Shown here in pieces: positions 2,104 through 5,979 of a stretch of 5,979 nt of DNA (the stretch's first letter is position 1; the number at the start of each line of letters is the position of its first letter). Under the pieces are notes generated by a model. That model had not been told where the DNA came from. It did no database searches and saw nothing but the letters and a program-made list of their open reading frames with translations. Source of the stretch: an uncultured Eubacteriales bacterium (GTDB lineage: Bacteria; Bacillota_A; Clostridia; Oscillospirales; Oscillospiraceae); NCBI GenBank assembly GCA_949747935.1, contig CATKHE010000152.1, positions 1 through 5,979 of the forward strand, given 5' to 3'. The translations under genes and the position numbers were made by a program.

Positions 2104-3513
2104 CTAAGATTCTGTCTTCTGCTCAGCCTTGCAGGTAAGGAGAGATACCACAATCAATACCACTAGGGACAGCAGAGAACTGGCAATATCGCTGGGAATG
2201 CCAAAGAAGGAGAACCCGCTCCAACCCAGAGCCACAAAAATCAGGCCGCTGAACAGGCCGGAAAAGGCGCCGATCTTGGTGGCTTTTTTCCACAGCAAGC
2301 CGGCCACCACAGGAGAAAAGACACCGGCTGTAAAGAGCGTGTAGGAGGAATTCAGCACCATCAGGACAGAGGGGATGGCCAGGGCGACCACCACAGAGAT
2401 CACGCCGATTACCAGCGTCATGATACGGGAAATGTTCAGCAGCTTTTTCTGGATGGCGGGGTCCTCCACATTGTCCTTGCAGATATAGCGCACATATATG
2501 TCGTTTACAACATGGGAGGTAGCGGCCGTCAGAATAGAATCGGCAGTGGATACCACAGCCGCGATGATAGCGGCCAGAGTAAATCCGGAGAACACAGGGG
2601 GCAGCATGGTGCGGATGATGGTGGGCACCACTAGGGAGGAGACCTCCAGTTCAGGGAACAGAACCCGGCCAGCCATACCCAGAACCACGGGGAAGAAGCA
2701 GATCACCAGCAAAATAACGCAGGCAAGTATAGCAGACTTATAGGCAGTTTTGGTATCCTTGGCTGCAAAGAGCCTCTGATAGACATCCTGTCCAATCAGC
2801 GTGTAGATGAACATAGGCAGAATCAGCCACAGCACATAGGAGGGCTCGGTCCCCTGAAGCAGGCTGAAGTAGTTGTCAGGCACGTCAGCCGCCGTCAGCT
2901 GGGCGGCAATGTCATCCCAGCCGCCGCTCTTGAATATCACAAAGAGGGTGGCCGCAACCAGGCCGACGCCCGCGATAATGATCTGAATAAAGTCAGTTAC
3001 AGTCACCGCCCATAGGCCACCGAAGGCGGTGAAGCCGATAAAGAAGACCGCCACGATAATAGCACAGGTGGTGGTAGAACCGACGCCCAGAGAGGCCAGT
3101 ACACTACCTGCGGAGGTGACCTGTCCGGCCAGAATGCCCACCAGGGCCAGCAGGGACAGGATGGTGGTGAGCAGGCGGAGCATGGGGCTGTTATACCGGT
3201 TCTCCATGATCTCCGTCACAGTGCAGACCTTCATGCCCTCCATTTTCTTCAAAATCAGGCAGACGGCCAGAATACCCACCGCGCCGGCCACCGGACTCCA
3301 GTAGGCGCTCATGCCGTTGTTGAAGGCCTCGCCGCCCACGCCGATGACATAGCCGCCGCCGAAATAGGTGGCCACCAGGGTGAATGTGGTCAACCCCACC
3401 CCCAGCCTCCGTCCGGCCAGCAGGTAATCGTCAATACTGTTGTTGAACTTGTTGCAGTAGATTCCAACACCAAAAATGGCAATGAGATACAGGGCAATAA
3501 TTGCAAGTTCCAT
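2104..3513 (-). CDS. Sodium:solute symporter family (SSS) transporter
   Basis: A 469-residue inner-membrane transporter of the SSS family (PutP/PanF/vSGLT type, LeuT-like fold), which uses a sodium gradient to import a small organic solute. The length fits the family, and I count about 12-13 hydrophobic segments. Residues 42-60 (TTFTLVATYFGGGYVIGVG) form the broken first core helix. The family signature FGGLWAVTVTDFIQ lies at 164-177 and GQDVYQRLFAAKD at 241-253. The segment AAVVSTADS (318-326) matches the helix where PutP and vSGLT bind sodium, with Ala319, Ser322 and Thr323 in the expected spacing. The start is fixed by AAGGAG six bases before the ATG. The gene follows the lyase by 29 bases, surely in the same operon, so it most likely imports the lyase substrate. 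Specificity cannot be read from sequence; ergothioneine, histidine or another histidine betaine are the candidates suggested by context. Confidence 0.92.
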   Translation of the reverse strand: MELAIIALYLIAIFGVGIYCNKFNNSIDDYLLAGRRLGVGLTTFTLVATYFGGGYVIGVGGEAFNNGMSAYWSPVAGAVGILAVCLILKKMEGMKVCTVTEIMENRYNSPMLRLLTTILSLLALVGILAGQVTSAGSVLASLGVGSTTTCAIIVAVFFIGFTAFGGLWAVTVTDFIQIIIAGVGLVAATLFVIFKSGGWDDIAAQLTAADVPDNYFSLLQGTEPSYVLWLILPMFIYTLIGQDVYQRLFAAKDTKTAYKSAILACVILLVICFFPVVLGMAGRVLFPELEVSSLVVPTIIRTMLPPVFSGFTLAAIIAAVVSTADSILTAATSHVVNDIYVRYICKDNVEDPAIQKKLLNISRIMTLVIGVISVVVALAIPSVLMVLNSSYTLFTAGVFSPVVAGLLWKKATKIGAFSGLFSGLIFVALGWSGFSFFGIPSDIASSLLSLVVLIVVSLLTCKAEQKTES

Positions 3514-3542: not shown

Positions 3543-5105
3543 TTAAAATTCCAGCTCGCCGGTTACTTCTTCCAGCAGGTCGATGAGGGAGCAGTCCCGC
3601 ACCCGGTCAAAAATGTATTCCATATCGGGATGGAGAAAACGGTCATTGTCCACGAAGGGGATGGTCTGTCGCAGGAAGTCCCGGACTTTGGCGATGGCCG
3701 GGGAGGGCTCCAGAGGCTTGAGGAAATCCATAGCCTGGAGGGCCACATAGATCTCAATGGCGGTGACATATTGCAGCTTGCGCACCGCCGCCCCGGCCTT
3801 TTTAGAGGCATAGTAGGCCATAGAGACGGGGTCCTCCTGATTGGCACAGGTGGGAATGCTGTCAATGGTGACGGGGACAGCCAGGTGCTTGATCTCGTTG
3901 ACCAGGCCGGCAGCGGTGTACTGGGTAATCATCAGGCCGCTGTTCAGCCCCGGGTTGGACACCAGGAATGCGGGCAGACCGTCGTTCAGATTGCGGTTGA
4001 CCATCCGGTCGGTGCCCCGCTCCACCAGGTTGCCGGCGATGGCGCAGGCCATGGCGATCATGTCGGCGTGGGCGCCCACAAAGCTGCCGTCGAAGTTGCC
4101 GCACATCAGGGCCACGCCGTCGTCCTCCCCCTCGGCGAAGATCTCCGGATTGTCGCTGATGGAGTGCATCTCCTTTACAATGACCTCGTAGGCCTCCTTC
4201 ACCAGCTTTTTGGCCGCGCCGTGGATATGGGCCATGGAGCGCATCACATAGGCGTCCTGCACCTTGGCGTCCACATACTTGGCGGCGATTTCACTCCCCT
4301 CCAGCATCCGGCTGAGATTGCGGGCGGAGCCGGCCTGCTCCTCGTGGCGTTTCGCGTTATGGATCCGGGAGTCCAGCGCCTTGGTGGTGCCGCGCAGCGC
4401 CTCATAGCACATGGCCCCCGCCAGCTCCACATTCTGCATGGCGGTGACGGACTCATAGAGGGCCAGCAGACCCAGCGCGGTGACGGTGATGGTGCCGTTG
4501 AGCATGGTCAGCCCCTCCTTATAGGAGAGGACCAGGGGCTTCAGCCCATTAGCCTCCAGTACCGGGAGGGCAGGGACCGCCTTTCCGTCCAGGAAAATTT
4601 TCCCCTCTCCGATGTAGGCCATCACCAGATGGGCCTCCACCCCAAGATACCCCACAGATCCCTCACCGGGCGCAAAGGGAATCAGATTCTTGTTGAGCAT
4701 CTGCCGAATGAGCTCCAAGGTCTCGAAGCGGATTCCAGAGTGACCCTTCCCGGCATTGAGAATGGTCATCAGCATCACCGCCCGGGCCTGGACTGTATCC
4801 AGGGGCTCGCCCACCGCGCAGGCGTGGGTGCGGACGATATTCTCCTGAAGCTTAGTGGCGTCCTCGGGTGAAATGGTATAGCGGACATTTTCACCGAACC
4901 CGGTGGTGACGCCGTAAATAATGCGGCCCTCCTCCAGGAATTTGTCCAGCAGCTTGCGGTTGGCCCGGACCGCCTCCTCCATCTCCTTGGAAAATTCCAG
5001 CTTCGCGCCAAACTTGGCCACTGCGATAAACTCCTCCAGGGTGGGCATGCAGTCAGTCAGGGTAACGCTGGAAATGGTCCTTGCGGACCTGACAGACAGA
5101 TTCAT
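3543..5105 (-). CDS. MIO-less aromatic amino acid lyase-fold enzyme; ergothionase-like candidate
   Basis: A 520-residue cytoplasmic member of the histidine/phenylalanine/tyrosine ammonia-lyase superfamily (PF00221), of normal length. Canonical positions kept: YGVTTGFG (64-71, catalytic Tyr64), VRTHA (His94, the histidine-lyase-like position), LNGT (Asn203), QDAYVMR (Tyr286, Arg289), SDNP (317-320) and NQEDPVSM (Glu424). Missing is the cofactor site. Where active ammonia-lyases have GSVGASGDLAPLAH, this protein has GSVGYLGVEAHL (149-160), so Ala-Ser-Gly is replaced by Tyr153-Leu154-Gly155 and the loop is three residues shorter. No MIO electrophile can form. The known MIO-less member, as I recall, is ergothionase of Treponema denticola, which eliminates trimethylamine from ergothioneine to give thiourocanate. 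The neighbouring symporter and sigma-54 control fit a scavenging pathway. An unknown betaine lyase or an inactive paralogue remains possible. Superfamily certain; ergothionase role about 0.55. Confidence 0.9.
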   Translation of the reverse strand: MNLSVRSARTISSVTLTDCMPTLEEFIAVAKFGAKLEFSKEMEEAVRANRKLLDKFLEEGRIIYGVTTGFGENVRYTISPEDATKLQENIVRTHACAVGEPLDTVQARAVMLMTILNAGKGHSGIRFETLELIRQMLNKNLIPFAPGEGSVGYLGVEAHLVMAYIGEGKIFLDGKAVPALPVLEANGLKPLVLSYKEGLTMLNGTITVTALGLLALYESVTAMQNVELAGAMCYEALRGTTKALDSRIHNAKRHEEQAGSARNLSRMLEGSEIAAKYVDAKVQDAYVMRSMAHIHGAAKKLVKEAYEVIVKEMHSISDNPEIFAEGEDDGVALMCGNFDGSFVGAHADMIAMACAIAGNLVERGTDRMVNRNLNDGLPAFLVSNPGLNSGLMITQYTAAGLVNEIKHLAVPVTIDSIPTCANQEDPVSMAYYASKKAGAAVRKLQYVTAIEIYVALQAMDFLKPLEPSPAIAKVRDFLRQTIPFVDNDRFLHPDMEYIFDRVRDCSLIDLLEEVTGELEF

Positions 5106-5114
5106 GATTTCGAT

Positions 5115-5120
5115 CTCCTT
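5115..5120 (-). promoter_or_regulatory. Ribosome binding site that fixes the lyase start
   Basis: AAGGAG lies nine bases before the ATG at 5105. The frame is open further upstream to an ATG at 5240, but that 45-residue extension would run across the sigma-54 promoter at 5165-5181, does not resemble a lyase N-terminus and has no comparable ribosome binding site. The start at 5105 is therefore preferred. Confidence 0.85.
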
Positions 5121-5164: not shown

Positions 5165-5181
5165 AGCATCTGTCGTGCCAA
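5165..5181 (-). promoter_or_regulatory. Sigma-54 (-24/-12) promoter of the lyase-symporter operon
   Basis: On the minus strand the sequence is TTGGCACGACAGATGCT. The sigma-54 consensus is TTGGCACG, four bases, then TTGCT; only the first T of the -12 element differs (A). The invariant GG (5179-5178) and GC (5167-5166) are exactly ten bases apart. The predicted transcription start is near 5154, giving a leader of about 49 bases before the lyase ATG with its AAGGAG. A sigma-54 enhancer-binding regulator is encoded directly upstream, so promoter class and regulator class agree. Confidence 0.88.
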
Positions 5182-5255
5182 CTGCCCGAAAAACCAATAT
5201 TTTTTTCAAACAGCAGTTTTTCACGCAGATCGCGGCACAAATCAGCAAAATAGAA

Positions 5256-5307
5256 GACAGTCCAAAAATTCCGCGTTCCACTCAGGACGCAAATTTTTTG
5301 GACTGTC
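5256..5307. repeat. Long inverted repeat between regulator and operon: terminator and/or enhancer site
   Basis: GACAGTCCAAAAATT (5256-5270) is mirrored by AATTTTTTGGACTGTC ending at 5307, with one extra T. Inside, GCGTTC (5273-5278) pairs with GGACGC (5285-5290) around a six-base loop, so the whole folds as one long hairpin. On the minus strand it starts 25 bases after the regulator stop and is followed by TTCTATTTTG, fitting a terminator of that gene. On the plus strand a T6 run (5311-5316) follows. Its centre is about 128 bases upstream of the predicted sigma-54 start, a usual distance for an activator-binding site, so the GACAGTCC/GGACTGTC arms may also be the regulator's target. Confidence 0.6.
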
Positions 5308-5332
5308 AGCTTTTTTGGCGCAAAAAATTTTT

Positions 5333-5979
5333 TCAGTTCAGGCCATATTTTTTCCGGTAGTATTGAAAGCTCTGACGGCTGATTTTCAGCAATTCAGCGG
5401 TCCTGGTGGCATTTTTTCCACATGCCTCATAGGCTTGTGACAGAACCTGCCGCTCATATGCCTGAACCATGCCGTCCAGCCCTTTTTTAAACAGAAGCTC
5501 AGGACCTGCGGAAACCGCAGCAGAAGCCGGGGCGGAGACGGGCAAGACGGAGCGGCGCAGAAAATAGACCGGCAGATTTTCCCGGCGCAGCACGCCCTGC
5601 TTCGCCATGCCGACGGAGCACTCCAAAATATGGAACAGCTCCCGCACGTTTCCGGGCCAGCTGTACTGCCGCAGACTCTCCCAAAAATCGGGCTCAATCC
5701 GTTCAATCGGATGGGCAGACTTGGAGCTGCGCTCCCGGACGTAGTACCAGACCAGCTCCTCCAGGTCCTCCATCCTCTCCCGCAGAGGCGGAATTTCAAC
5801 CATCGCGGAGGCCAGACGGTAAAACAGGTCCCGGCGTAGCACGCCGGCCTCTACCAGCGCAAAAACCTCCTGATTACAGGCGGACAGGACCCGGATATCC
5901 ACTCGGATGTCCTTGGTGCTGCCCACCCGCTGGAGTGTCCCCTCCTCCAGCACCCGGAGCAGCTTGGCCTGCATCGGCA
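5333..5979 (-). CDS. Sigma-54-dependent transcriptional activator (C-terminal part, N-terminus beyond window)
   Basis: The 3' part of a bacterial enhancer-binding protein, about 215 residues, running off the window's right edge. The frame stays open through the ATG at 5974, and MQAKLLRVLEEGTLQRVG is internal to the AAA+ domain, so that ATG is not the start. Counting from that Met: RRDLFYRL (47-54) holds the arginine-finger region, IPPLRER follows at 61-67, and WPGNVREL (106-113) is the sensor II signature. A variable alanine-rich linker (about 145-160) precedes a Fis-type helix-turn-helix, GKNATRTAELLKISRQSFQ with YYRKKYGLN at the end, similar to clostridial RocR/PrdR-type activators. Walker A, the GAFTGA loop and the sensor domain are not in view. 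It reads toward the lyase operon, which has a sigma-54 promoter, and most likely activates it in response to the substrate or a product. Confidence 0.93.
   Translation of the reverse strand, partial: PMQAKLLRVLEEGTLQRVGSTKDIRVDIRVLSACNQEVFALVEAGVLRRDLFYRLASAMVEIPPLRERMEDLEELVWYYVRERSSKSAHPIERIEPDFWESLRQYSWPGNVRELFHILECSVGMAKQGVLRRENLPVYFLRRSVLPVSAPASAAVSAGPELLFKKGLDGMVQAYERQVLSQAYEACGKNATRTAELLKISRQSFQYYRKKYGLN

Follow-up and report, generated by a model that had tools for sequence, protein, structure and literature searches.

Without MIO, the self-made electrophilic cofactor of histidine ammonia-lyases (HAL or HutH; PDB 1gkj, 7tqr, 6v6h), a free alpha-amino group leaves poorly and a quaternary amine leaves well. 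The ammonia-lyase fold already has one known MIO-free member, ergothionase from Treponema denticola (PDB 6s7j/6s7q), which is the sole such relative that we found described. According to PMC13405746, this enzyme lacks MIO and releases trimethylamine. In the window analyzed here, i.e., a stretch of 5,979 nucleotides from an uncultured Eubacteriales bacterium, an aromatic amino acid lyase-family gene (Table 1) also lacks the MIO triad. Judged by its sequence, its product belongs to the histidine ammonia-lyase fold family but is MIO-free. The lyase belongs to a lineage that we name after its GSVGY loop. Neither this lineage, nor its residue signature, nor its link to betaine carriers was found in the titles and abstract openings of open-licence literature, a scope that leaves most subscription journals outside. 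A structure of ergothionase by Maurer in 2019 and a gut bacterial ergothioneine pathway in JACS in 2025 have reportedly been published, and either might hold a description of GSVGY proteins.

Table 1. Features located in the window, with strand and basis of assignment.
Feature	Coordinates	Strand	Basis
Sodium:solute symporter gene, downstream of the lyase and 29 bases from its stop	2104..3513	minus	PF00474, 157.8 bits
MIO-less aromatic amino acid lyase-family gene	3543..5105	minus	intact frame; PF00221, 496.7 bits
Glu424 codon, equivalent to HAL Glu414	3834..3836	minus	residue counts, 95 rows
Asp339 codon; His in MIO rows, Asp/Glu in MIO-less rows	4089..4091	minus	residue counts, 95 rows
Altered MIO loop, residues 149-160, GSVGYLGVEAHL	4626..4661	minus	translation and alignment
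Glu157 codon, invariant in A and B	4635..4637	minus	residue counts in tree set and homologue set
Tyr153 codon, in place of Ala-Ser-Gly-Asp	4647..4649	minus	multiple alignment
Sigma-54-type promoter, TGGCACGACAGATGCT, upstream of the lyase	5165..5180	minus	pattern match
Inverted repeat in the regulator-lyase gap, 31-base arms, 81% complementary	5246..5317	.	dyad search
Sigma-54-dependent transcription activator, C-terminal part, cut by the window end	5333..5977	minus	PF00158, PF25601, PF02954

The lyase gene has an open frame encoding 520 amino acids; its coordinates include the stop codon, and its ATG at 5105 is preceded by AAGGAG at 5115-5120. The PF00221 match (cut-off 27.3 bits) spans 458 residues. 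In a sequence search of the PDB, MIO HALs came out on top (6v6h, 293 bits), with ergothionase 6s7j far lower (120.5 bits). The expectation that such a protein would be mislabelled as histidine ammonia-lyase holds in all six cases in which a source name was legible among the 120 best of 7623 homologues, but the window lyase itself falls under the curated NCBIfam hutH cut-offs (TIGR01225, 476.6 vs. 539.15 bits; NF006871, 496.2 vs. 524 bits).

Multiple alignment with MIO HALs confirmed that the triad is missing and that the loop is three residues shorter, and the placement of residues 149-160 at 4626-4661 of the minus strand in the original prediction is exact, counted from the ATG. That prediction also described the change as Tyr-Leu-Gly for Ala-Ser-Gly, which is right in that the triad is gone but reads a deletion without its gap: the MIO loop is GSVGASGDLAPLAH and that of the window lyase is GSVGY---LGVEAH(L), with a single Tyr and a three-residue gap replacing Ala-Ser-Gly-Asp. 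The homologue search scored 8000 candidates and gave 7623 homologues, and residues were examined in the best 120 of these, which are 56-95% identical to the query across the aligned parts. With the query they make up 121 proteins, 117 of which hold the loop. Ala-Ser-Gly or Ser-Ser-Gly was found in none of these 117, and 116 of them carry Tyr-[Leu/Ile] at the triad site, the exception, P0055, having Gly-Leu. Glu157 is present in all 58 tree-set rows of A and B, and in all 117 homologue-set rows with a letter at that position, which corresponds to HAL Leu149 and is Leu in 25/25 MIO rows. A decayed HutH, chance or one bad read was rejected as an explanation, since the triad is missing in 116/116 loop-holding homologues among the best 120 of 7623. 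The earlier statement that this is not simple decay is supported, also by the invariant loop residues and by the sigma-54 sites at 12 of the 14 loci examined, as discussed later.

The tree, built from 95 rows with the loop columns excluded, contains two MIO-less clades, each with an SH-aLRT of 100, although long-branch warnings were raised for both this tree and a 24-row tree. The GSVGY clade (59 rows) consists of a branch A, a sister group B and the odd lyase L028, while the ergothionase clade has 11 rows; MIO HALs and AdmH fall outside both. The window lyase is placed in branch A, with QEDP at 423-426 where B rows have NQEDY or SQEDY, and it shows the signature of the GSVGY clade: Tyr153 with the three-residue deletion, Glu157 and an acidic residue at 339. 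We speak of B as a group, since it is weakly supported as one branch, with an SH-aLRT of 89 for the 95 rows and a recovery of 24% among 200 bootstraps for the 24 rows. Its members are 39-47% identical to P0001 and mostly carry GSVGYLSPEAH, thus sharing with the window lyase the loop type, Tyr153, Glu157, the acidic 339 and Glu424. Two independent losses of MIO are only suggested; MIO rows lie on one side of a branch in 0% of 200 bootstrap trees (24 rows), and a single MIO-less clade is not rejected in the 24-row likelihood test (p-AU 0.232), so that one or two losses are both possible. A third triad-less loop type, GTVGQLTCQPY, is seen in L028 (L038:9427-10968), which is 38% identical and adjoins a sodium symporter gene.

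Sequence comparisons with ergothionase were made via two Acidaminococcus paralogues, the close relative L030 (921 bits to 6s7j) and the more distant relative L031 (532 bits). When compared with HutH and ergothionase, as had been proposed, the window lyase lies in its own clade apart from both and is about 24% identical to the ergothionase relative (L030 vs. P0001). Like ergothionase, it has no MIO and is acidic at 339. However, the ergothionase loop SSIGEGDITTLSH is one residue shorter than MIO loops, as opposed to three in the window lyase, and keeps HAL Asp145; both the loop pattern [SG]S[VI]G[EQ][AG]D and Leu286, which are features of ergothionase, are missing in the window lyase. An assignment of the window lyase as ergothionase was rejected on the basis of the separate clades, the different loop and the different neighbours.

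A PF00221 search found in each of five genomes one HAL with Ala-Ser-Gly or Ser-Ser-Gly, either of which was counted as MIO, together with two to five triad-less genes. Urocanase is present in 8/8 genomes searched. Among 291 genomes of one class, 39 had matches at an E-value of 1e-20, and the 30 loci obtained comprised 25 MIO HALs and 5 lyases with the GSVGY loop. Searches at 1e-111 of 300, 200, 22, and 194 genomes matched 1, 19, 2, and 10 genomes, respectively; MIO HALs still accounted for 5 of the 24 matches in the 200-genome search.

A quaternary-amine substrate is favoured because a free amine leaves poorly without MIO, and ergothionase provides the precedent. Our preferred reading, which we consider evenly poised between right and wrong, is that the lyase, working without MIO, eliminates a tertiary amine (probably trimethylamine) from a hercynine-like betaine that is imported and probably bears an imidazole. 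The elimination would take place across C-alpha and C-beta of the imported aromatic betaine, giving an aryl-acrylate of the urocanate type and the tertiary amine. Arg289 would hold the carboxylate, His94 and Glu424 would hold the ring as in HAL, and Tyr64 would take the beta proton. No electrophilic cofactor would then be needed for the departure of the already quaternary amine, whose positive charge would be met by Asp339 and by Tyr153 and Glu157 at the former place of MIO. The substrate of branch A, the group that leaves it and what individual residues do are our inferences.

These assignments were compared with residue counts over the 95 rows, in which one ergothionase-like protein is counted twice among the 70 MIO-less rows (A, B, L028 and ergothionase-like), the other 25 being MIO rows. 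We take HAL His83 and Glu414 to contact the imidazole and HAL Tyr53 to be the base. Tyr64 and Arg289 are invariant over all 95 rows. Position 339, equivalent to HAL His330, is acidic in 70/70 MIO-less rows vs. His in 25/25 MIO rows. Glu424 is present in all 70 MIO-less rows and in 24 of the 25 MIO rows, with Gln in AdmH, a non-histidine MIO enzyme, and Gln283 is kept in 68/70 MIO-less rows. Within branch A, His94 is found in 27/28 rows and Glu424 in 28/28. The window lyase retains Tyr64, His94, Asn203, Gln283, Tyr286, Arg289, Phe338, and Glu424 in common with MIO HALs, and differs from them by Pro426 (His in 19/25 MIO rows) in addition to Asp339 and Glu157. Retention of Tyr64, Asn203, Tyr286, Arg289, and Glu424, as originally noted, is therefore correct for the window lyase, but many members of the wider MIO-less clade have lost Asn203 and Tyr286, which are mostly kept only in branch A. 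Compared with B, the presumed ring contacts in branch A are the same, its amine pocket looks more HAL-like and its carrier is of another class.

Genomic neighbours were counted within 6 kb of each lyase by tblastn with reference genes, with one contig-cut copy reassigned. References for BCCT, MttB, SSF, sigma-54, urocanase, HutI, aconitase X, molybdenum hydroxylase, and Opu-type proteins were checked with Pfam/NCBIfam, and the assignments of FtcD, Fhs, FchA, HutT, and the SARP-like regulator were made by eye. Among 35 B lyases, 21 have a BCCT and 2 an Opu-type binding protein nearby (together 23/35); 10 of the remaining 12 have a sodium symporter, so that one or more of these three kinds of transporter are found near 33/35. 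By comparison, only 4/43 MIO HALs are near a betaine transporter (Fisher p = 1.8e-7), and all four, which are near BCCTs, occur in loci with a B lyase in between (L134-L137); without such a B lyase alongside, the count is 0/39 (p = 1.0e-10 vs. B), although both p values overstate the evidence because the set of loci contains close relatives as well as some contig ends. A hut gene of any kind is found near 10 of the 35 B lyases, urocanase near 7 and an ergothionase-like gene near 8. In L130, a B lyase is directly followed by urocanase, HutI, FtcD, and FchA homologues, and a SARP-like gene sits between the B lyase and urocanase in L126 and L128. The betaine carriers and partial hut linkage of B point to conversion of hercynine to urocanate and trimethylamine.

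Several other genes were observed around B-type and ergothionase-like lyases. A 180-residue protein accompanies eight B-type lyases in seven loci (L130:5340-5879, L034, L126, L128, L144, L145, L146), all of which have a sodium symporter instead of a BCCT; its L130 copy has no match in Pfam or NCBIfam. At two loci (L125, 8601-12165; L148, 446-3708), a B-type lyase lies beside an Opu/ProU-type ABC transporter set, in which the binding proteins match OsmF under the cut-off, the ATPases match ProV, one above and one below the cut-off, and the permeases were recognized by eye. These sets are possibly importers of the hercynine or ergothioneine type. In L034 (13942-15879), an aconitase X swivel domain (PF01989) and an ergothionase-like lyase (PF00221) share one ORF, with an aconitase X gene adjoining, and aconitase X also occurs together with an ergothionase-like gene in L124.

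The neighbourhood of branch A is different. A sodium:solute symporter is found within 6 kb of 7 of the 12 A lyases, two of these symporters being only 24 and 29% identical, and hut genes were found within 6 kb of none of the 12, vs. 31/43 MIO HALs. A BCCT lies near only one, at the basal L076 locus, where the lyase L047 (51% identity, QEDPVS) is located between a BCCT (374 bits) and an MttB-family methyltransferase (398 bits); whole-genome searches found no BCCT in the A-lyase genomes G001 and G764, and MttB genes were found in 2/8 genomes searched. The prediction of another elimination chemistry with a better leaving group is backed indirectly, by betaine-type transporters near B and one basal A lyase, but core A has only an unassigned sodium symporter adjacent.

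This difference leaves room for a rather unlikely alternative, in which B is still a betaine lyase but branch A, having kept a HAL-like pocket, expels a group other than trimethylamine, i.e., a less methylated amine or a non-amine, from a histidine-like compound. Core A has Asn203 in 22/25 rows and Tyr286 in 23/25, vs. Ser203 in 28/30 and Leu286 in 29/30 rows of B, which also has mostly Ala or Pro at 338 and Tyr426; the Ser203 and Leu286 changes are common to B and ergothionase-like rows (9/11 and 11/11, respectively). Asn203 and Tyr286 could mean a smaller amine pocket with no trimethylammonium. The transporter class and the lack of hut genes within 6 kb fit this alternative, as does the co-occurrence of A and B lyases in five genomes (G002, G003, G004, G005, and G764), which suggests different substrates. 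Against it, the basal A members L047 and L113 both carry Leu286, the former beside the BCCT and MttB genes, and Tyr153, Glu157 and the acidic 339 are common to A and B.

A betaine with a non-imidazole ring, derived from tryptophan, tyrosine, or phenylalanine, would account for the same genomic context as an imidazole betaine, and His at the His94 site also occurs in tyrosine ammonia-lyases. Such an aromatic-betaine trimethylamine-lyase is nevertheless improbable given the HAL-type Glu424 in every MIO-less row, where AdmH has Gln, and the location of some B lyases within hut clusters. Even less probable is a new type of ergothionase that reached the same substrate from another branch. Although the missing MIO and acidic 339 are common to both, and 8/35 B lyases neighbour ergothionase-like genes, the clades are separate and Acidaminococcus (G003) already bears the ergothionase relative L030 in addition to an A lyase. 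Moreover, seven of nine ergothionase-like genes have a molybdenum hydroxylase within 6 kb (six have a BCCT), and no molybdenum hydroxylase gene was found beside any of the 12 A lyases. That the protein is a catalytically dead paralogue serving as a binding protein or sensor, as loss of the triad might imply, is about as improbable in view of the conserved Tyr64, Arg289, Glu424, and Gln283 and the regulated cassette with a transporter.

Returning to the MIO-free elimination from an imported betaine, a tentative and somewhat doubtful extension is that the whole GSVGY lineage forms a second, large set of MIO-free betaine lyases in Clostridia, Negativicutes and relatives. B would convert hercynine to urocanate and trimethylamine for the hut pathway, A, controlled through sigma-54, would act likewise on another imidazole betaine, and MIO would have been lost twice, with an acidic residue replacing the same His each time. 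If true, some genes named histidine ammonia-lyase would break down betaines without deaminating histidine, and annotation would be hiding an extra source of trimethylamine, the precursor of TMAO. The lineage would also be a natural experiment on how the fold works without its self-made cofactor, in which the exchange of His for Asp/Glu at 339 is directly testable.

Branch A is a sigma-54 cassette composed of regulator, promoter, lyase, and sodium symporter. It has the look of a unit for regulated import and cleavage, in which the neighbouring sigma-54 activator would run the lyase gene and the symporter would import the substrate. A sigma-54 activator homologue is found within 6 kb of 11/12 A lyases, including that of the window, and of 22/35 B lyases. 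The window has one sigma-54-type match vs. 0.06 expected, and 10 of 200 shuffles reach one match. A pattern built after the window's site had been seen located similar sites, 65-125 bases ahead of the lyase, in 12 of the 14 loci examined, which include two copies in one genome and the close kin L001 and L009; the site was not found in L002, a 9.4-kb contig with no such regulator, or in L076, where the regulator is present. The inverted repeat, located between regulator and promoter with dyads at a like place in L001 and L009, may be an activator site or a terminator. On one contig (L036-L037), two A-branch lyases flank a single symporter, each with its own sigma-54 activator.

Two further features lie toward the left end of the window. 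An IS3-family transposase fragment (3-437) scores 88.9 bits vs. a cut-off of 160. A tRNA-Val gene (anticodon gac) is located at 875-950 on the plus strand, and the ORF that overlaps it (734-1006) is probably no gene.
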